A stretch of 64,000 bases of DNA from Multifurca ochricompacta. Lineage: Eukaryota > Basidiomycota > Agaricomycetes > Russulales > Russulaceae. The notes beneath the pieces were generated by a model that saw nothing but the letters and a program-made list of their open reading frames with translations, made no database searches and was not told the origin of the DNA. The DNA lies in contig WTXG01000061.1 of NCBI GenBank assembly GCA_022496185.1, positions 1 through 64,000 of the forward strand, read 5' to 3'. The translations under genes and the position numbers were made by a program. The first letter of the stretch is position 1; each line of letters starts with the position of its first letter. This document shows positions 11,453 through 64,000 of this stretch, piece by piece.

Positions 11453-14400
11453 ATGTCCCAAACACCCTCCACAACAGCCTCAAGTTCGAATTATCAAGCC
11501 ATTTTTGGCGCTGCTTTGAAAGAATACAAGATCCGAACTGGGAAAGATATTGCCGACCACCCTTTATCGGCTAGGATTCAATCATGTAACTCTCCTGATG
11601 CCATTCTGGCCATTCTTCAAGAAAAGGCCCATGAGTTCGGTCAATCTATAAGCGACAACAAAAGGCTGACAAAGTGGTTGAATCCAACTGTTAATGTCCT
11701 CTATGCGTTTTCAGCCACATTAGGCGAAGGTGTTGGCTTGGTCAGTCGTATCATGTTCAGCTCGTTCCCGCACAAGACCTACACTCTTGTATTATTACAC
11801 AGGTCTTCTCTCCCGCCAAGGTAATCTTTGCTGGAATAGGTGTCCTCCTCTTGGTAAACATTCCTTATCTCGTTGTGCATGTCACTTCCACAACCGACTC
11901 AATTAGGCAGCAAAGGATGTTGAGGCGAGCCAAGGAACTCTCCTCGAGCTGTTTGATCGAATTGGAAGCTTCTTCAGACGACTTGAAACTTATATTGAAG
12001 TCTCACCAAGTGATGGGATGAGAGATATGATCGTGAAGATCATGGTGGAAGTACTATGTATACTTACGATTGCAACGAGGGAGATCAAGCAAGGGAGAAC
12101 GAGTGAGTTAGGATGATCGAGAAGATAGGGCTGATAATTTATATTTGTTCAGAGAAGTACTTCAAAAAGCTTGTGGGAAGGACCGATATCGAGGATGCGC
12201 TTCAGAGGCTAGATAGGTTGACACAAGAAGAAGCTCGGATGGCTACTGCTCAAGTTTTGAAGGTCACTCAGAAGGTGGACGGAAAAGTGGATGGCGTAGG
12301 GGACAGAGTGCAGCTGGTCGAAAATACGGTGAACAGCGTCGATGACAAGGTGGAGATTATCGATGGCAGAGTGCAAGGGATCGGTGATAGAGTGAAAGGC
12401 GTCGATGAAAAAGTGCAGATTGTCGACGGCATGGTCCAAGGCGTTGACGACAGAATGAGGATTGTTGGCGACAAGGTTAACCAAATCGTTGATGGTGAGC
12501 GGGACCCTATTTAGCCGATCAATGGGTCTATTCTGAAACATTTTATGCTGGCAGAGGGAAAGGCAACAAGGGTATCAGTTCAGAAACTAGCGAATGATCT
12601 AGGCTATTTGAGCCGTTCGTGATTTTCTAGCTCGGATACCGCTGGGTAAATAGGCTCAACTGACCATCACCTTTCCGCAGGAATTCAAATTCTAGAGAAG
12701 CTTCGCAACTGGCTTTGCCCCCCAGATCCATCCATCAATTACAACACCGCACGCAGCACTCACCACGAGGGGACCGCCCAGTGGTTCACCAATGGTGAAA
12801 CTTTCATCGATTGGAAAGCATCAGGTTCTCTCTTGTGGATTCATGGAAAACGTATATTTCATCTACCCACCACAGACCAACTAATACTAATGGCCTTTCG
12901 GTTTGCTAGCGGGATCTGGAAAGAGTATTCTCAGGTGTGTCTCTCACAATCAATTCTGCCTATGGAATCCTATGTTGATTACGACCAGCTCCGCAATCAT
13001 TCATAATATCGAGGCGATCTCAAATGCTGGCTCTGCACTTATGGCCTACTTTTATTTTGATTTCAAGGACACCGGCAAGCAGGACCCTCGTGCCTTGCTA
13101 TCCTCCCTTCTGATTCAGCTTTGCAATCAATCCGACATTTATTGCGACATTCTTGTTGCTTTGTACTCGATTCACCATCAAGGCTCAAAACAGCCCGGCC
13201 ATGACGCGCTTATTCAATGCCTTCAGGACATGCTCACTGTCCCAGGGCAAATTCCAACTTATTTAATCATGGACGCGTTGGACGAATGTCCGAACAGTTC
13301 TGGAATACCATCGGCGCGTGAAAGGGTACTTGAGCTTGTGGAAAGATTTCTAGAGCTGAACCTCCCAAATTTGCGACTTTGCATCACTAGTCGTCCTGAG
13401 ATTGATATCCGGACCTCCCTGGATCCCGTAACATCTCATCGCGTGTCCCTTCATGATGAAAATGGGCAAAAGGATGATATCATCGACTATGTCAGCTCTG
13501 TGGTTTACTCAGATAGAAAGATGCGGAGGTGGCGAGATGAGGACAAGACTTTAGTTATCGAGGCGCTCTCAGACAGAGCCGATGGAATGTAAGAGTGACG
13601 CTCTTTATTGATGGTCATACGTTCTCATGGTATGAAACAGGTTTCGATGGGTTTTCTGCCAACTTGAAATTCTTCGGCATTGTCTCCCACCAAGTGTACG
13701 GCGTATCCTTGACGAATTACCGGAGAGTTTGGACGAGACATACGAACGCGTACTAAAGGAGATCAATAAGGCAAACCGAGAACACGCATATCGTCTATTG
13801 CAATGCCTTACAGCAGCAGTTCGGCCACTTAGCGTTGAAGAGCTCGCAGAAGTCCTTGCCGTCGACTTCAACGCCGGAGGTATTCCGAAGCTAAACGTGG
13901 ACTGGCGCTGGGAGGATCAAGAACAAGCTGTACTCTCCGCGTGCTCGAGTCTAATCGCCGTCATTGACGTCGGCGGTTCCCAAGTGGTTCAATTTTCGCA
14001 CTTCTCCGTGAAGGAGTTCCTGACCTCGGATCGCCTCGCTGCCTCGAAGGGAGATGTTTCGAATTATCATATTCGTCTGGAGCCTGCGCATACCATCCTT
14101 GCACAAGCTTGTCTTGGTGTCTTACTGCGATTAGACGACAAGATCGATAAGGAGAGCATCAAGAGCTTTCCTCTAGTCCAATATTCCGCTGAAAACTGGT
14201 TGGACCATGCGCAATTCGAGGGTGTGTATTCACATATAGAAGAAGGGACCTACCACCTTTTTGATGCAGAAAAACCCCACCTTTCGGCGTTTCTCTGGGT
14301 ACGCTCATCGATGACTGAGATTCATCCAGAACGACTTGAAACTGTCCCACTGTACTACGCTGCGGAATTTGGGTTCCTTAAATTGGTAGAAGGCCTCATT

Positions 14401-15027
14401 ACCAAGCATCCAGAAGATCTGAACGCGACTGGCGGGGAATACGGTAATCCTCTGCTCGTGGCAATGCACGGGAGTAATAAAGAGGTCTCATGGCTTCTAC
14501 TCGAGCGTGGTGCAGATGTGAACTACGGGGGTTGGGCGCTCATGACTCCGCTACACGTAGCATCAGCGCGTGGATTATTCGATATTGCACAGTGGCTACT
14601 CAACCATGGAGCAGATCCAAGCGCCCTGGATGAGCACCATTGTACCTCGTTGCATATAGCTGCAAGTGTCGGAAACAGTGACATTATTCAGATCCTTCTT
14701 GAACGCAACGTAGGCGTCGACTCCAGGCGCACCAGTGGCCAAACGCCACTACATAAAGCGGCGGAACAAAGCGCGTTAGAGCCCATACGCTTATTGCTGG
14801 AGCATGGTGCGGATCCAAATGCACAAGATGGAGGACAATCAACCCCGCTTCATGAAGCAGCGAGCAGGGGATATTTGCAGACCGTACAGCTGCTTCTCGA
14901 CCATGGTGCGAATGTACATCTGGAAAATGAAAATGGCGCGACACCATTTCAAGTTGCGACAAAAGAAGGTCACGATAAAGTCGCACAATTACTGTCGGAG
15001 AATGGTGGCGGCGGACAAAAAGAATGA
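11453..15027 (+). CDS. NLR-like receptor N1 (Goodbye-NACHT-ankyrin)
   Basis: A STAND-class intracellular receptor-like protein of about 1039 residues, as in fungal non-self recognition genes. Exons: 11453-11740, 11803-11853, 11907-12102, 12153-12494, 12555-12614, 12681-12851, 12910-12934, 12989-13588 and 13641-15027; their sum is in frame. Residues about 10-180 match the fungal STAND N-terminal Goodbye domain (WLNPTVNVLYAFSATLGEGV). Then come about ten heptads of the V-D-x-K/R-V type (residues about 220-290), a coiled-coil linker. The NACHT P-loop GKPGSGKS (about 368-375) is assembled across two introns; Walker B is YLIMDALDEC (about 472). About seven ankyrin repeats occupy 810-1030. ATP-dependent switching is inferred from the family. 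Its ligand and effect are unknown. It is intact. Confidence 0.9.
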
Positions 15028-28449: not shown

Positions 28450-29130
28450 CAGAACGCAGCTGTGAAAGGGTTTAGCTATCTATGTAGATAGCGGATAGGT
28501 GTGGTCAAAACTAATATATTAATTAGTATGTTTACCTATGTAGATAGCGGATAGGCTATTAGTAAGCGTTAGCTAACTATAGTAAAGATAAGATACTAAT
28601 ACTCACTTCAGTTGTTGTGGTCAAAACTGAAGTGGACACGTACAATATAGCGACCTTTTAATACTACATTAAAGTGTGACAATCATTACAATAAATAATC
28701 CTATTTACTTGCGACAAGATGTGTGAAGGAAAGTGTTGTGCGTGCAATGTGGAATTGTATCTCAATCAGTTAATGTCAGATTATCTTATCACGATCGTTA
28801 GATCGAGTCCACCCGGGAGTCCGGCTCGTCTCAACACACTAGTCAGTACTCTCTGTGTTAAAGCTACATTATCCCTTCAGTGATTCATTTGTGTAGCTAC
28901 ACATTCATAGGTATTAACAAATTACATAGTCTTTCTATCCCAAAGACTGAGCTACGCATTTATAGTTCACTACATAGCCAACATAACTGAAGTGAGTATT
29001 TTATTATCTTATCTTTACCTATGTAGCTAAAGCATACTAGTTATAACTACCATCCTAGGTAACGACTAATATTATTAGTTCTGACCAATTATAACTACCA
29101 TTCTAGGTAGTTTGGATTATCTAACCTCAG
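28450..29130. repeat. Fold-back repeat with long imperfect inverted arms
   Basis: The left arm (about 28480-28640) and right arm (about 28960-29125) are imperfect reverse complements over roughly 150 bp. The matching core is AAAGATAAGAT..ACTCACTTCAG versus its complement at 28979-29020. Within the left arm ACCTATGTAGATAGCGGATA-like units repeat (28481, 28536). A perfect 10-bp hairpin CACTTCAGTT / AACTGAAGTG lies near 28602-28635. The central 300 bp are unrelated and non-coding. The ends and any target duplication are not defined. Confidence 0.6.
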
Positions 29131-46459: not shown

Positions 46460-49400
46460 TCACTTGCCGCCATGCTCTGACAGCATTTGTGCGATCTCTT
46501 GATGCCCGTTCGCCAATGCCATCTGGTATGGGGTCTTACCTTTGTTATTTTCCAGGTGGACATTTGCGCCATGCTCAAGTAAAATGCGTGCAGCCTCGAC
46601 CTTCCCATTAAATGACGCCCAGTGTAATGGGGTCCAGGATTTCTTGTCCAGTGCAGCCACGTCTGCACCGTGCGCCATCAAAATCCGCATGACACCGATG
46701 TAATCGTGGTCGGGGCCTGAGATAAGACCTTGCGACGATAGGTGCAACGGAGTATTACCGAATCTATCTTGAAGATTGACCTCTACATTGTGTTCACAAA
46801 GCCTCCCAACAGCTTCGACGTTTCCATTCACTGCTGCTACATGGAGTGGAGTCGAGAGGTCATCCTGTCGGATATTCACATCCGCACCTTTCTTGAGTAG
46901 AAATGGAATCACGTCGGATCTGTGCGGCCAAGAGAGGGCCTTGTGCAGTGGAGTCTGTCCTTTACTGCCGCGGACATCTACATCGCCACCATACTTGATT
47001 AGGAGTTCGGCAATATCGAAGTGCTTCTTGAATAGTGCTACCACAAGTGGATACTCGAAGTCACCAGCGCCTCTAACATTCACAGTTTGTGGATGCTTGA
47101 TAACGAGGTGTTCTGCTAGGCCATAAAACCCACAAAACGCGACGTAGTACAAGGGGACTGCTTTCGGTGGTGTCGAATAATACCGCAAAGTATTATCGAA
47201 TTTTCGTAACCAGACCCATGCTGTAAAATGCGGTTTGTCTGAGTCTAGCAGGTCGTCGATCCCGTTTTTGGTGTATAAAAACACATTCTCGAACTGAACA
47301 TGGTCCATCCAGTAGAGTGCAGCGTACTCAGCTAGGGGGAAGCTTTTCAGGTCCTCGTCGTTAATTTGATCACCCAACTGGAGCAGCATCCCAAGGCAAG
47401 CTTGCGCAATGATCGTGTGCGCTGGCTCGAGAGGAATGTGATAACGCGAGACATCCCCGCTCGAAGTAGAAAGGCGATTCGAGCACAAGAATTCCTTGAC
47501 GGAGAAGTGAGAGAACTGCACCACTTTAGAACCGCCATCGCCGATGACTATGGAAACCAAACTAGAACATGCCGAAAGCACGGCTTGTTCTTGATCCTCC
47601 CAGCGCCAGTCGGTGTTCAACGTTGGAACCGCTCCCTGGGCTGCGCCAAAGTCCATCGCCAGAATTTCCGCAAGCTCCTCGATACGAAGTGGTCGGATGG
47701 AAACCGTGAGGCATTGTAAGAGACGATGAGCATGGTCACGGTTCGTCTTATGTATCTCCCGTAGTACGCGCTCGTAAGTTTCATCGAGAGTATCAGGCAA
47801 CTCATTAAGGAAACGCTTGACGCTTGGCGGGAGACAGTGGCGCAGCATCTCCAGCTGACAGAAAACCCATCGAAACCTGTGCTTAATAAGATAAAAATGG
47901 TAGAGCATATGACAATACTCTTACATTCCGTCCGCTCTTTCAAAGAGCGTTTGGATAACCAGCTCCCGGTCATCCTCCCTCCATCTCCGCATCTTTGTAT
48001 CTGAGGAAACGACAGAGCTGACATACTCGAGTATATCCTGACTTTGTCCACTTTGGTCATGAAGGGACATGAGGCGAGAGGTCAAGGGCTCGAGTGCACC
48101 TTTAATGTCGATCTCTGGACGGCTAGTGACACATACGCGTAGATCTTGAAGGCCCAGGTCAACGAGTTCCTTCACGAAATCAAGAACTTCTTCCCGTGGG
48201 CATGGCATTCCAGAAGTGTTGGAACACTCATCGAGAGCATCCATAATAATGTAAGTTGGCGCCTGAGCTGGAAGTGAGAGCATCTCTTTCAGACATTCCA
48301 TCAGAACGTCATCGCTAGGCTGTCGTGCGCCCCTGCCGTGTGTCGAATAAACGCGGGAGAGTACACCACAACGAGGGTTGGACTGAGCAGAGAGTTGGAT
48401 GAGAAGGGAGAGGAGTAAGTTGTGGAGGTTTTGTTTATTTACGTCCCTGAAGTCGAAGTAGAAATATGCCATGGTAGCCAATCCAGCCTCGCACATGGCG
48501 TTGACGTCGTGAATAATTGTGGAGCTGAGAGGTGACATAGGTCTATTTATGCAAGAATAGTCGAACATCCACGAACCAGAGGATGCTCTTTCCTGAACCC
48601 GCTGTGCAACCATGGAATGCTCATGAAGAGCTCACGCCTCGAATGAACAAAAGAACGTACGCTTCCCATGGACCCACAGTAAGGAGCCAGTCGCTGACTT
48701 CCATTCCTTGAAGATACTACATTGAAAGAACCACTCCGCCGTTCTCTTGTGGTGAGCTTTGCACGCAATATTGTGGTTTGTCGATGGGTCAGGAGGGGAT
48801 AACCATTTCCAAAGGTTATCTTGCACCTGGCTCTCTGCGGTAGTGGTTAAACATTTTCGGCAACAACAGAGGGGTCATGAAAACACAAACGGTGAAGATC
48901 GTCTACATTGTTCGCGATCTGTTCCACCGCTACCTTTACTTCCTTGCCATCTAGACGAAAGCTCAAGCTAAAGTGGATGACGAGTTTGAACGAATCGCGC
49001 ACCATCTTTTATATCACTGGTAGTCTTCAACATCTGTGCAATCGCCATTCGGGCCTCTTCCTGTGTCAGCTGGTCCAACCTCTGTAGTGCATCTTCGATA
49101 TCTGTCCTCCCTGCTAGCTTCTTAAGATATGTTTCTATTTGAAAGTTAGAGAAGAGAATCCTATTTTCGGTAGCCAACCCACTCATTAGTTTCTGTTTAA
49201 TCTCTTTGTCGCAATAGCAAGAATAGACAACACTTCAGCCATTATCTTGACGATTATGTGGGTCATGGCTGCGGTTGGTGGCACTTCGGTGTAGGCTTGC
49301 AGGCGCTTGAAAAAGTTTTCGATGCGTTCAAAGAGGCTCAAAAGCGCATCTTGGCTCGAGCCCACTCCCTTAGCCGCCTGAGAGACTTGGGTGTCATGAT

Positions 49401-49827
49401 AACCAGAGAAAGGGGAATCAAGGAAAGATCCTCGCCATTAGGAGGACGCCTATTCCAGCAAATATAACTTTTGCAGGAGAGAATACCTAAGAAATAAGTC
49501 AACGTGCAGACTATTTTCAAGATAGTGCCTGAGGTTTACTAGGCCAACGCCCTCGCCAAGGGTCGCAGAAAATGAATAAAGGATGTTCACAGTCGGAGTA
49601 AGCCACATCATTAATCGCTCATTTCCGCCCCTAGATCCATCGAAGATGCGGGCTTGCTCTTGGAGTACGGCTAGGATGGAATCTGGTGATCGGCAATTTT
49701 GAAGCTCAGCGAAGAGTGGGTGGGTCGTTAATTCTTTCCCCGTCTTCTTCTTGTACTCTTTCAAGGCGGCATTGAGGATTGATTGGAAATTTGAAGATGA
49801 TGGAGGAGGCTGGTGAGCTGAAGACAT
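46460..49827 (-). pseudogene. NLR-like gene N2 (Goodbye-NACHT-ankyrin), damaged
   Basis: It has the same nine-exon plan as N1 and N3: 49827-49540, 49486-49436, 49377-49183, 49134-49003, 48950-48891, 48834-48661, 48601-48577, 48524-47925 and 47876-46460. The Goodbye domain, P-loop microexon (GSGKSIL), Walker B (YIIMDALDEC) and about seven ankyrin repeats are present. Two lesions: exon 3 is 195 nt instead of 196 because an A-run near 49205-49207 is one short, giving a stop within a few codons; and intron 2 begins GCGAGG instead of GT. The heptad linker is the shortest of the four (exon 4 is 132 nt). With the frame kept it would be about 980 residues. Either a pseudogene or partly an assembly artefact. 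Confidence 0.85.
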
Positions 49828-50136: not shown

Positions 50137-53100
50137 ATGTCTTCCTCTTCCGATTTTCAATCCATCTTCGATGCTGCCTTTAAGGCGTACAAAAAGAAAA
50201 CAAAGAAAGATCTGTCCACTCATCCTTTAGCCACACAGTTACAATCTTGCGACTCTCCTAGTGCAATCCTGGCTGTGCTTCATGGACAGGTCGAGGAATT
50301 GGAAGAATCTCGGAGTGGCGATGAGAGATTGAAAAGGTGGCTTAACCCGACCATCAATGTACTTTATGCATTTTCTGCCGCGCTTGGAGAGGGTGTTGGT
50401 TTAGTGCGCTCGTTATGGCTATATCTTCGTGAACCTGCAATTTAATGTTTATTCTCCAGGCGTTCTCACCTGCAAAAGTGATCTTTGCGGGTATCGGCGT
50501 GTTCCTCTTGGTCAGTTTCCCGATTCCTTACTAAGAGTCATTGTAACCCCAAGTACTGTTAGGCGGCTAAGGATGTTGGTGCGAGCCAAGAGGTACTCGG
50601 TGACCTTTTTGAGCGGATCGAGAATTTCTTCAAACGCTTGGAGGCTTATACGGAAGTACCACCGACTGCGGGAATGACAGATATAATTGTGAAGATAATG
50701 GTGGAAGTTCTGTCTATATTCGCTATCGCCACGAAAGAGATTAAGCAGAGTCAAACAAGTAAGTTGATAGAGATATCGTATGTTTCACGATACTCATAAC
50801 GTATTTTTCTCTAGAACTATACCTGAAGAAACTGGTAGGACGGACAGATATGGAGGATTCGTTGAAGAGGCTTGACAAGCTAACGCAGGAGGAAGCTCGG
50901 ATGGCTACTGCGGAAACCTTGAAGATTACCCATATTGTCGATGGAAAAGTGACTGACATCGGCAACCAGGTAAAGGGTGTTGATGACAAAGTGAAGGATG
51001 TCGGCCAGGACGTGAAAGGCGTTAGTGAGGAGGTGAAAGGAGTTGGTGATAATGTGAAAGTGGTAATTCAAGGTGCGCGCCCAATATTTATGCAATTATT
51101 CAGCACAATCCTCAACCGTTATATGGCCAGACGGAAGGGAGGCAAAAGCAATCATCCAGCAGACCGCCAACACCCTAAACCAAGTCAAGCGTTCGTGATA
51201 TTTTACCCTCGCCGCTTTCTTTTGTGCCCAAACAACACCACAGGGAATCAGCTAAGAAAGGACCTTCAGAAATGGCTCTCTCCCCCAGACCCCTCCACAA
51301 ATCATAACATCGCATCAGAAGCGCAACACAAGGGAACTGCACAGTGGTTCTTCCAAGGGACTATCTTCAACGAATGGAAGTCGACCGGATCCCTCTTATG
51401 GATTCATGGAAAGCGTATGCCTCTTCTACCATCTACCATTTGTCGTTTTCTTATGGTCTCTTGCTTTGATAGCGGGCTCTGGAAAAAGCATTCTCTGGTA
51501 TGTTGTCTATCTAATACCCCGGCCTTGCCAGAACTTATGTTATGGACAAGTTCGGCTATCATTCAAGATGTCCTGGCCCTGCGCGAGGCCGGATTAGCCT
51601 CTGTCGCCTATTTTTATTTCGACTTTCGAGACCTCGATAAGCAACATCGCCATAACTTGCTCCCCTCACTCCTAATCCAACTTTCTGCTCGTTCTGATCC
51701 TTTCTGTGATATACTCTTCCGTGCTTATGTGGCACACGAAGACGGTGCACAAAAACCGAGCGACAGTGTCTTGATGGAATGCCTAAAACAGATGCTCACA
51801 CTCCCGGACCAAGGACCAGTTTACATTATCATGGATGCGCTCGACGAGTGTCCGAACACTTCTGGGATTCCGACCGCACGGGAGAAGGTGCTTCAAATGG
51901 TGAAGGAACTTGTCGACTTGCGCCTGCCAAACCTTCGGATATGCGTGACTAGTCGTCCAGAAATCGATATCCGTGCTAACCTTGAGCCGTTGGCGTTTCA
52001 CCCTGTCTCGCTTCACGAGCAAAGCGGACAAAAGAAAGATATTGTGGACTATGTCCGCTCTATTGTTTACTCGACTTCGGAGACAATGATGAAGAGATGG
52101 CGAGACGAGGATAAGAACCTGGTTATTGAGACACTCTCAGAAAAAGCTGATGGAATGTGAGTGTGAGACGGTCGTGCCATATTTTGTGGAAAGTTAACTG
52201 ATATCTAATTCAGGTTTCGATGGGTTTTCTGCCAGTTGGAAACATTACGAGACTGTCTCCCACCAAGTGTGCGGCGTACCCTGAGAGAATTGCCGGAATC
52301 CCTGGACGAGACATATGAGCGCGTGTTGCGACAGATCAGAAAGGCGAACCGAGATCACGCTCATCGTCTCTTGCAGTGCCTCGCCACGGCGATTCGACCA
52401 CTTCGGGTGCAAGAGCTTGCAGAGGTTCTTGCCCTTGACTTTGATGCATCACAGGGAGAAATCCCGAAGCTGAACCCGAGCTGGCGGTGGGAAGACGAGC
52501 AAGAAGCTGTGCTATCTATTTGCTCAAGTTTAATTGCGATTGTGAACGACGACGGCTCTCAAGTAGTGCAGTTTTCGCACTTCTCTGTGAAGGAGTTCCT
52601 GATGTCAAATCGGCTGGCGGGTTCGACTGGAGATGTTTCGTGCTATCATGTTCCTCTGGAGGCTTCTCACATGGCCTTATCACAGGCATGCCTTGCTACT
52701 CTGTTGCAACTAGACGATCGCGTTGAATATAGCGCCGATGAAACGTTTCCTCTGGCTCGGTATGCTGCACAATATTGGGTGGATCACGCACAGTTCGAGA
52801 ACATATGGTCACGCCTCAAAGATGGGATAAGAAGTATCTTTGACCTGGACAGACCACATTTTTCAGCCTGGCGCAGAATCTATGACATTGACGAATCTTA
52901 CCAAATTTACGAATTTTCATTCATCATGGACGACGAAGAACCCAGTGTGGTTCCTCTATACTATGCTTCACTATGTGGATTTCATGAGCTCGTTATCCAA
53001 TTAATAAAGGAACACCCGCAGCACGTGAATGCGAAGTGTGGACACTGTGGAACTCCACTAGGGGCTGCATTAGTCAAGAAACACTTCCAGATCGCACAGT

Positions 53101-58925: not shown

Positions 58926-60035
58926 ATGGAATCCCTCAATCTTAATGCTCTCGCAGGCTCTCTTCCGACTTCTAACCTTGCTAATGCAGAGAAAGAACTG
59001 CTCAACAATTTCAGAGGTAAAACACTCGCATTTTTCCCTACTATCGTACTTTTGTGCGGAGATTGACACACACCCTTCCGGTAAGCGGCGGCACTCAGCA
59101 TAACAAATCTCTATCGCTCCTCACGCACGACGTCCAAGCGCGCTTACAACTCGGGCTATGCGCCGCCTGCGCCGACCTGCTTCAGATGATTCAACAGGCG
59201 TGTCTGATTCCGAGACGCCACCCACGATAGGGCGAGTCATGGACTGGGTCGAGGCACGCCTTGAGGCTGTCCGTGCGCGTGAAGAGGAGGAGCTCGAGGA
59301 GGATGAGGAGAATGCGAGCAAGAAGGACAGTCAGGCTGGAAAGCTCAAGGCGAACGCCGCCAACCCCCGCGGGCGAGCAGCGCTCCGGCAGTGCCGCCAC
59401 AGCCACCAAAAGACCAAGTGAGCACGTCTCTTGATCTCTTGATTTTTCCCCTACCCCCCTTACTATTTTACTTTGTTGATAGACACCCATGGCCCCATCG
59501 AAATTATCGCAGACGATCGCCACCGCACCGGGCACATCACCATCAGCGCCACCTTCACCATCTGTTCCCATCACACGATCCCTTCCTGCCCCTGCCCCAC
59601 CCTCACGCGCCGCAAAATCCCGACCAGTCCATCGCCGATACAAGCCAGGAGAACTCCGCCACGACAACAATGACCTCCACGACGACGACAATGACGACAA
59701 CGACGATGGCAGCCCCGCCGGCAATCCACCCTTTCGCAATGTCACCTGAATCACCTTTCACATTTACCGCATTTCCGCCATTGCCATCCTCTCCTGGACC
59801 GACAGAAACGCTCGCGATCCCCCTTCCATTGACGGTGGCCGCTGGAGCGAAACGTCGGCACGCCATGATGGTGCTCGCAGATGACCCTGCCTCTGTGGCT
59901 GCTGGTACAGCAGGTGCAGGGTCGAGCCGCCGGCGTACGCGGTCGACTCGTGGTGCGCATCAGAATCAGCATACGCAGGACGCTATGGATATTGAGGAGG
60001 ACGGGCGTGAGCGCAAGCGCGTCGCGCGCCGCTGA
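58926..60035 (+). CDS. Conserved HAPSTR1/TAPR1-like protein, frame-broken
   Basis: It starts MESLNLNALAGSLPTSNLAN (exon 1 58926-59016; intron to about 59059). Then the block AALSITNLYRSSRTTSKRAYNSGYA-AACADLLQMIQQ-GVSD, resembling the helical core of the C16orf72 (HAPSTR1/TAPR1, DUF4588) family, followed by RVMDWVEARLEAVRAREEE. Another intron lies at about 59418-59482, then a proline/serine-rich tail and a basic C-terminus (ERKRVARR) preceded by QDAMDIEEDG. Single bases seem missing near 59160 and 59197 and another shift lies near 59615, all in short runs. The family assignment is tentative; if right, a nuclear protein linked to stress signalling. Confidence 0.5.
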
Positions 60036-62848: not shown

Positions 62849-64000
62849 ATGTCCAAGACACTCCCAGCGACCACCTCATGCTCAAATTTCCAATCTGTCT
62901 TTAATGCCGCCTTGAAAGCATACGAGAAGCAGACGAAGAAGGACCTTCTCGCGCATCCGCTCGCCGCCCAGTTGCAAGCCTGCAAGTCTCCTGGAGCTAT
63001 TCTGGAGGTACTCCACGAGAAAGTCCAAGAGTTCGACCAATCTCAGAATGAGGATGAGAGGTTGGCGAGGTGGTTGAACCCGACCGTGAATGTCCTCTGT
63101 GCGTTTTCCGCGGCGCTTGGAGAAGGTGTTGGCCTCGTGAGTCCTCCGAGTCCCAGACAAAGGGTCGTCGTCAATCCACACTCTGACATTCACCTTCCCT
63201 AGGTATTTTCACCTGCCAAAGTGATATTTGCTGGTGTTGGCGTCCTTCTTCTGGTCAGTCTTTTCGTCGATCCTACCCATTCATACGAATCGTTGTAACG
63301 TGGCAGTTTATCAGGCGGCTAAGGACGTTGCTGCTAGCCGAGACGCGCTCGTTGATCTCTTCGAGCGCATCGAGAACTTCTTCAAACGCCTCGAGATGTA
63401 CATAGAAGTACCACCAACTACAGCGATGACGGACATCATCGTAAAGATAATGGTCGAGGTACTCTCAATCCTTGCCATCGCGACAAAGGAGATCAAGCAG
63501 GGACGAACGAGTGAGTTTATCCTCAGTTTGTATCTATCTTTGCTCATCTACATTCAGAGAAATATATCAAAAAGCTTGTAGGAAGGACAGATATCGAAGA
63601 TGCGCTGACGCGGCTGGACAAGCTGACACACGAAGAGGCTCGGATGGCGACTGCTCAAGTCCTGAAGGCCACTCATGAACTTGGCGTAAATGTAAATGTC
63701 GTCGACAACAAAGTGCAAGGTGTTAATGACAAGGTGAAAATATTAATTGACGGTGCGCAGCGCATGTTCCGGTTCTTGCTGAAGCCTACTCTGAACTCTA
63801 TGAGGCTAGATAGCAAGGACGCCAAGGCAATCATGCAACAGACAGCAAACAAACTAGACGAAGAGAAACGTTCGTTATGTCCTATTACCCCCCGTGTTTG
63901 TAGTCTCGAATAACTGCGCAGGAAACCAACTGCAATTGGATCTTCGAACATGGCTTTGCCCACCAAATCCATCAACAAATCACAACATTGCGTGCAGTGC
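62849..64000 (+). CDS. NLR-like receptor N4 (Goodbye-NACHT..), 5' part
   Basis: The first exons of a fourth Goodbye-NACHT gene: 62849-63136, 63203-63253, 63315-63510, 63558-63752, 63810-63869 and 63922 to beyond 64000. Exons 1, 2, 3 and 5 have the same lengths as in N1 (288, 51, 196, 60). The Goodbye domain (WLNPTVNVLCAFSAALGEGV; VFSPAKVIFAGVGVLLL) is intact; three heptads (ELGVNVN VVDNKVQ GVNDKVK) follow. The window ends in exon 6 at the PPNPSTNHNIACS block just before the NACHT domain, so the P-loop is not visible. No lesion so far. Confidence 0.88.

Follow-up and report, generated by a model that had tools for sequence, protein, structure and literature searches.

The closest described systems are proteins with variable repeats or register-sensitive coiled coils. 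In Arabidopsis, RPW8/HR proteins carry an MLKL/HET-S-like helical domain followed by C-terminal helical repeats of 14 or 21 amino acids, and the number of these repeats varies and alters NLR-dependent cell death (PMC6684095). Fungal NLRs have C-terminal WD, ANK and TPR repeats that change in number and are often highly conserved within a gene (PMC4986451). Chicken BG genes, an immune multigene family, encode a cytoplasmic tail of heptads presumed to form a coiled coil, with 13 to 36 heptads per gene in one haplotype and each unit an exon of 21 (or 24) nt of its own (PMC4046983). In the linkers of bacterial sensor histidine kinases, length modulo 7 and phase matter for signalling, and stutters and stammers are described (PMC6798134, PMC11164954); a stutter is a 4-residue and a stammer a 3-residue insertion (PMC6798134). 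Natural linker lengths in a phytochrome set cluster within about 10 residues of those of the parents, with several registers filled. SMC proteins are ATPases with a coiled-coil arm, between ATPase head and hinge, in which heptad register matters (PMC5344682). Goodbye is named together with HeLo, HeLo-like and SesA among the N-terminal domains of fungal NLRs (PMC12881547), and Goodbye-like domains are counted as pore-forming (PMC12258605).

The locus described here shares traits with each of these systems. Like RPW8/HR, it encodes repeats, here predicted to be helical, of variable number and a length that is a multiple of 7, but the RPW8/HR repeats lie in a separate protein whereas these sit inside the NLR, between effector and ATPase; the 14- or 21-residue repeats at the C-terminus of RPW8/HR have no counterpart, the unit being 7 residues and the array inter-domain (L054 and L058 alternate by 14). 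The WD, ANK and TPR repeats also belong to fungal NLRs, yet here an N-terminal linker is built of 7-residue, mostly diverged units. Heptads form the tail of BG proteins and here join two domains. In contrast to the kinase linkers, the lengths span 147 residues, in NLRs, and change by unit expansion. SMC proteins are unrelated to this family, and we know of no comparable unit array in their arms. Heptad-quantised signalling linkers, repeat-number variation in NLRs and the RPW8/HR repeats are known; the variant seen here is a linker, probably resized by heptads, at the Goodbye-NACHT position. We found no description of heptads in Goodbye-domain or NACHT fungal NLRs in a literature consisting mostly of papers other than subscription articles and preprints. 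In a 2014 survey of fungal NLRs, 'heptad' is absent and 'coiled-coil' occurs once, in relation to plants; the main texts of two further fungal NLR papers contain neither word.

Exon structure and domains in the window

The window, the whole 64,000-nucleotide stretch analysed (contig C564), contains the Goodbye-NACHT NLR genes N1 to N4 (Table 1). In all four, exon 4 is bordered by AG on the acceptor side and GT on the donor side, and its length is 6 mod 21 in each, in agreement with the 21-nt steps of the original prediction. Recounting the V-D-x-K/R-V-x-G heptads from a conserved anchor gave the same numbers as had been proposed, and the range 12268-12494 takes in the whole N1 array together with the last part of the anchor. 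Tandem Repeats Finder reports a 21-nt period in N1 and N3. The neighbouring exons had been described as fixed in length, which is correct for exon 2 (51 nt in 4/4) and exon 5 (64 nt in 4/4, N2 and N3 being read to the next GT donor). Exon 3, in contrast, is 196 nt in N1, N3 and N4 and 195 nt in N2, so the description is inexact for N2, and N3 has a shorter exon 1, of 267 nt versus 288.

Table 1 Features of the window, in positions of the whole stretch.
Feature	Position	Strand	Basis
N1 exons 1-3 (288, 51, 196 nt) and introns, Goodbye-type N-terminal domain	11453..12102	+	homologues with PF17109
N1 exon 4, 342 nt, conserved anchor helix and heptad array	12153..12494	+	splice signals, translation
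N1 array, 10 heptads	12275..12484	+	counted from anchor
N1, 21-nt period	12359..12415		Tandem Repeats Finder, 75% match
N1 exon 5, 64 nt, end of linker	12555..12618	+	
N1 open frame, NACHT-type ATPase	12903..13592	+	PF24883 above cut-off, PF05729 below cut-off
N1 open frame, winged helix (PF22939) and ankyrin repeats	13729..15027	+	
N2 exon 4, 132 nt, 0 heptads	49003..49134	-	
N2 exon 3, 1 base short	49183..49377	-	
N2 exon 2, followed by GC, not GT	49436..49486	-	
N3 exon 4, 258 nt	50815..51072	+	splice signals
N3 array, 6 heptads	50937..51062	+	counted from anchor
N3, 21-nt period	51007..51060		Tandem Repeats Finder, 81% match
N3 exon 5, 64 nt to GT donor	51131..51194	+	
N4 exon with Goodbye match	62900..63151		PF17109 above cut-off
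N4 exon 4, 195 nt	63558..63752	+	splice signals
N4 array, 3 heptads	63680..63742	+	counted from anchor

Domain matches place the array between Goodbye and NACHT, where it changes by whole units, as had been claimed. PF17109 (Goodbye) scores 63.8 bits in homologue P0003 and 64.1 bits in P0055 (cut-off 24.8) and exceeds the cut-off in an N4 exon; no exon of N1, N2 or N3 is among the 39 matches listed. The NACHT-type P-loop ATPase PF24883 exceeds its cut-off in N1, N2 and N3. PF05729 does so in P0003, falls below the cut-off in N1 and N3 and has no match listed for N2. Ankyrin repeats are present in open frames of N1, N2 and N3, and N4 runs past the end of the window. Comparing the fold of the N-terminal domain yielded no specific match, with no MLKL, HeLo or plant CC entry among the matches listed. 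The sole match of a PDB sequence search, 3f85, was weak (E 0.00084), had no stretch passing by itself and was disregarded.

N2 has defects in exons 2 and 3, and the exon 3 match stops at query residue 47 both in N2 and in its copy on contig C111; both copies of the gene may be pseudogenes. N2 (minus strand, start 49827) and N3 (plus strand, start 50137) lie head to head, their start codons about 310 bases apart, and these partners carry 0 and 6 heptads, respectively. Neighbours less than 3 kb apart are divergent in 10/10 cases (124 of 150 exon-4 matches examined), several of them haplotype copies; gene length alone makes other orientations unlikely within 3 kb. In L071, the C111 partner of N4, exon 4 is frameshifted with stops, so the two copies of N4 differ in apparent integrity. 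The window also contains a further 21-nt tandem repeat outside the NLR exons (59654-59706, CTCCACGACGACAACAATGAC) and part of a repeat family at 28453-28837 (also 28985-29087, minus strand) with at least 68 genomic matches (40 of 2,680 candidates scored), some in inverted pairs.

Linker lengths in the host genome and in homologues

The 39 residues of the anchor, with which exon 4 begins, served as a probe and had at least 150 matches in the host genome, both haplotypes counted (240 candidates); 98 distinct loci, mostly from the better-scoring part of these matches, were examined. The strict donor was defined as the first in-frame phase-1 GGTRNG site past the anchor, a rule that is blind to length. 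It is present in 62/98 loci and lies 4 mod 7 residues past the anchor in every one, with 15 different lengths between 4 and 130 residues (0 to 18 heptads). In one subfamily, of 26 loci whose anchor mostly reads ...LGE or ...FGE, all 22 strict donors lie at 11 residues, with no expansion; such a constant short linker counts against the coiled-coil stalk proposed below. The 72 loci outside this subfamily have 40 strict donors, all at 4 mod 7 and with 15 lengths. The 36 loci that lack a strict donor comprise 14 broken or frameshifted copies, 16 in which a weaker site, in phase 1, lies at 4 mod 7 (L085 is doubtful) and 6 others (L030, L031, L041, L042, L043 and L098).

Some loci depart from the general exon layout. 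Exon 4 of L030, L031, L041 and L042 is fused into exon 5-like sequence, with neither an array nor a strict donor, and the linker of homologue P0006, a member of the 3 mod 7 class, matches the translation of L030 (contig C35) as far as the exon end. In L054-L058 and L061-L064 (contigs C80, C129, C86 and C277) the array alternates in 14-residue steps (VDxNVKVIKExTxx) and does not consist of plain heptads. Exon 5, although its sequence is different, likewise changes by a 7-residue step outside the window: L048 has a second AKEAKVA (+21 nt), and L059 and L068 have only one. The assembly appears to hold both haplotypes, since many family loci occur as near-identical pairs on two contigs (for example, C564/C111).

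The homologue set of 201 proteins combines the 120 top-ranking proteins among 2,404 N3 homologues with the results of two further searches. By name, 197/201 are from Lactarius, Russula or Multifurca, as are 118 of the best 120. A length-limited search with the array alone (7,996 candidates scored) found at least 53 proteins, 52 of them named Lactarius. Linker length, counted between the anchor and WLSPPDPS, a sequence bordering NACHT, was measurable in 188/201 proteins, the other 13 being left out because the start or end anchor was unclear. The linker between Goodbye and NACHT has 20 to 167 residues and 58 different lengths, and classes 0 to 6 modulo 7 contain 11, 5, 7, 27, 5, 2 and 131 proteins. 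The main class thus holds 131/188, compared with an expectation of 1/7. Over periods 5 to 11, vector strength is 0.565 at period 7 and does not exceed 0.134 at any other (188 proteins); for the first 120 proteins (115 measurable) and periods 3 to 15, R is 0.586 at 7 and at most 0.237 elsewhere. Period 10 has R 0.237 in the 115-protein set and 0.134 in the 188-protein set. An artefact that could produce any period was rejected, as only 7 stands out in either range. The flanks are near-constant, with four flanking anchor distances at their commonest value in 106/111, 107/114, 103/114 and 81/81 proteins.

Kinship was addressed with a 178-tip tree of the N-terminal domain, after 10 more proteins with a short N-terminus had been dropped, which yielded 89 independent pairs. 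Linker length is equal in 20 pairs and different in 69. The difference is a multiple of 7 in 34 of these (binomial P 5.6e-12), and among the remaining 35 pairs it is ±3/±4 mod 7 in 22 (P 0.0003 versus 1/3). P-values assume independence, which is attempted by the 89-pair test only. As a control, the distance from the start of Goodbye to the anchor, a crude best match, is equal in 50/89 pairs and otherwise takes many values. The 62/62 host donors and 131/188 homologues bear out the predicted family-wide clustering in 7-residue steps. An error of gene models or of splice-site choice is an extremely improbable source of this clustering. Exon ends are predicted, and some models, such as P0067, P0132 and P0100, look wrong, but wrong models should give noise and not period 7, and the database proteins also form one main class. 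An artefact of splice-site choice was rejected, as 62/62 loci fall in one class under a donor rule that uses phase and motif irrespective of length.

Of 188 homologues, 57 are off the main register, which counts against the stalk; several of these, not all, look like retained introns or truncated models. Among 152 measured proteins, the second class contained 24 of 43 off-register proteins (P 6e-9, kinship uncorrected). Second-class members P0038, P0064, P0079, P0011, P0013 and P0103 have 4 or 11 extra residues, and P0106 and P0129 appear to be faulty gene models. The second most frequent class corresponds to a stutter or stammer step, which argues for a stalk with coupled phase. A linker that had only to be long or flexible could take any length; one phase in most members over a 147-residue range likewise argues for a coiled-coil stalk.

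Heptad pattern, predicted helix and change of the array

Across 490 units from 109 in-register proteins, positions 1 and 5 of the heptad, the core, carry aliphatic residues in 98% and 96% of cases, compared with 1 to 11% at the other five positions, which upholds the 4-3 spacing first read from the window. The core is aliphatic at 86% and 83% in 24 second-class proteins and at 76% and 84% in 19 others. The pattern is weaker in the last 34 residues before NACHT, with 47% and 46% at core positions versus 11-26% elsewhere. In the host, 263 units from 30 loci (both members of haplotype pairs counted) have V/I/L at position 1 without exception, D at position 2 in 171, K/R at position 4 in 207, V at position 5 in 224 and G at position 7 in 72. 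From these sequences, V at position 5 would be core a and V/I at position 1 core d, which would make D position e and K/R position g. An acidic e and a basic g are traits of parallel coiled coils, and this arrangement would suit a parallel homo-oligomer. When both core positions are beta-branched, trimers or higher oligomers are favoured over dimers, and the composition of the array would favour a trimeric or higher, not a dimeric, state.

Single-chain AlphaFold2 predictions are consistent with a helix. For P0055 (112 sequences), one 69-residue helix (186-254) is predicted through anchor and array, with block confidence of 72-91 up to residue 250 and pLDDT of about 50 in the exon 5 part; its N-terminal domain is predicted to be helical, with blocks of 74-94 for residues 11-170. 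For the longer protein P0003 (49 sequences), one helix is predicted at 219-283, running through the array in the direction of NACHT; block confidence is 39-80, and the N-terminal half of the model is poor. Between array and NACHT, both the heptad pattern and the predicted helix are weaker, which speaks against a stalk that is continuous to the ATPase.

Comparison of near-identical copies indicates how arrays change. Between L032 and L033 (98.4% identity over 3,093 nt) there are three indels, of 2, 21 and 1 nt, and the 21-nt one falls at the first base of the array. Arrays differ by 21 nt between L009 and L018, by a net 42 nt between L017 and L018 (aligned as 21 + 22 - 1) and by 210 nt between L054 and L058. 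Indels outside the compared exons have many lengths. Adjacent 21-nt units average 60% identity and 0/127 reach 90%; most arrays are not fresh minisatellites. Next-but-one units reach at least 90% identity in 5.4% of cases versus 0.8% between loci (17 chosen loci), a sign of 42-nt duplications such as in L009.

These differences of 21, 42 and 210 nt, the 21-nt unit and the 42-nt duplications speak for an alternative, neutral tandem-repeat dynamics, in which mutation alone generates the steps and the linker is a tolerant spacer. Repeat mutation alone does explain the 21-nt step, and a 21-nt unit could by itself yield period 7, a point against the stalk. It explains less easily the conservation of the core, 96-98% aliphatic despite 60% DNA identity of adjacent units, or the excess at ±3/±4 mod 7, where off-register differences concentrate, several of them in exon 5, outside the tandem array. 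Arrays do acquire indels of other lengths, of 1 nt in L026 and of 11 nt in L047, but the frames of both copies look broken. As a full account, neutral change seems unlikely.

Haplotype-like pairs were defined by upstream identity of at least 0.97, downstream identity of at least 0.96 and strict donors, with L069/L007 excluded (same place). Heptad count is equal in 15/16 such pairs, the exception being L032/L033, so the suggestion that linkers change between strains is not well supported and allelic variation was rejected as the main source of length differences. Without the downstream limit, seven more pairs among L009, L012, L017, L018 and L019 differ by 1 to 3 heptads; these loci are taken for close paralogues. 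L032 and L033 are not proven alleles and may be recent paralogues, given a third, interrupted copy on C3, collinear with C256, whose match stops after about 1,073 bases. The equal counts also bear on whether the array is a recognition surface, a bait for a partner or pathogen protein with avidity tuned by heptad number, a role already proposed for the repeats at the C-terminus of fungal NLRs. Repeat-number polymorphism in the WD, ANK and TPR domains of fungal NLRs (PMC4986451) and the position of the greatest variability, at heptad positions 3, 6 and 7 of the host units, are in its favour; however, equality in 15/16 pairs and the simplicity of the surface make this role very unlikely.

A probable resizable stalk between effector and ATPase

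We consider it probable that the linker is a parallel coiled-coil stalk that is resized by whole heptads and keeps effector and ATPase in phase. Oligomerization, coupling of phase and function are parts of this reading that we infer. The array would be the variable middle of a helical stalk joining the Goodbye domain to the NACHT ATPase. Unequal exchange or slippage, acting between units of 21 or 42 nt, would add or remove heptads. In-frame changes that put the two stalk ends out of phase would mostly be purged, stutters and stammers excepted. Oligomerization of the ATPase would bring the stalks together, and stalk length would then set the distance of the clustered effector domains from the ATPase ring, leaving rotational phase unchanged. 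A coiled coil rises by about 1 nm per heptad.

Heptad number could also act as an assembly code, in which only length-matched, same-phase subunits zip into an active oligomer and paralogues are thereby kept apart. We regard this as quite unlikely; if true, subfamilies bearing a stutter would form a second, out-of-phase compatibility class.

Freedom in length combined with a phase that is largely constant suggests a continuous, oligomeric helix running from effector to ATPase. The family offers a natural length series, with 0 to 18 heptads in one genome, in which the parts played by spacing, phase or partner choice in NLR activation could be tested.
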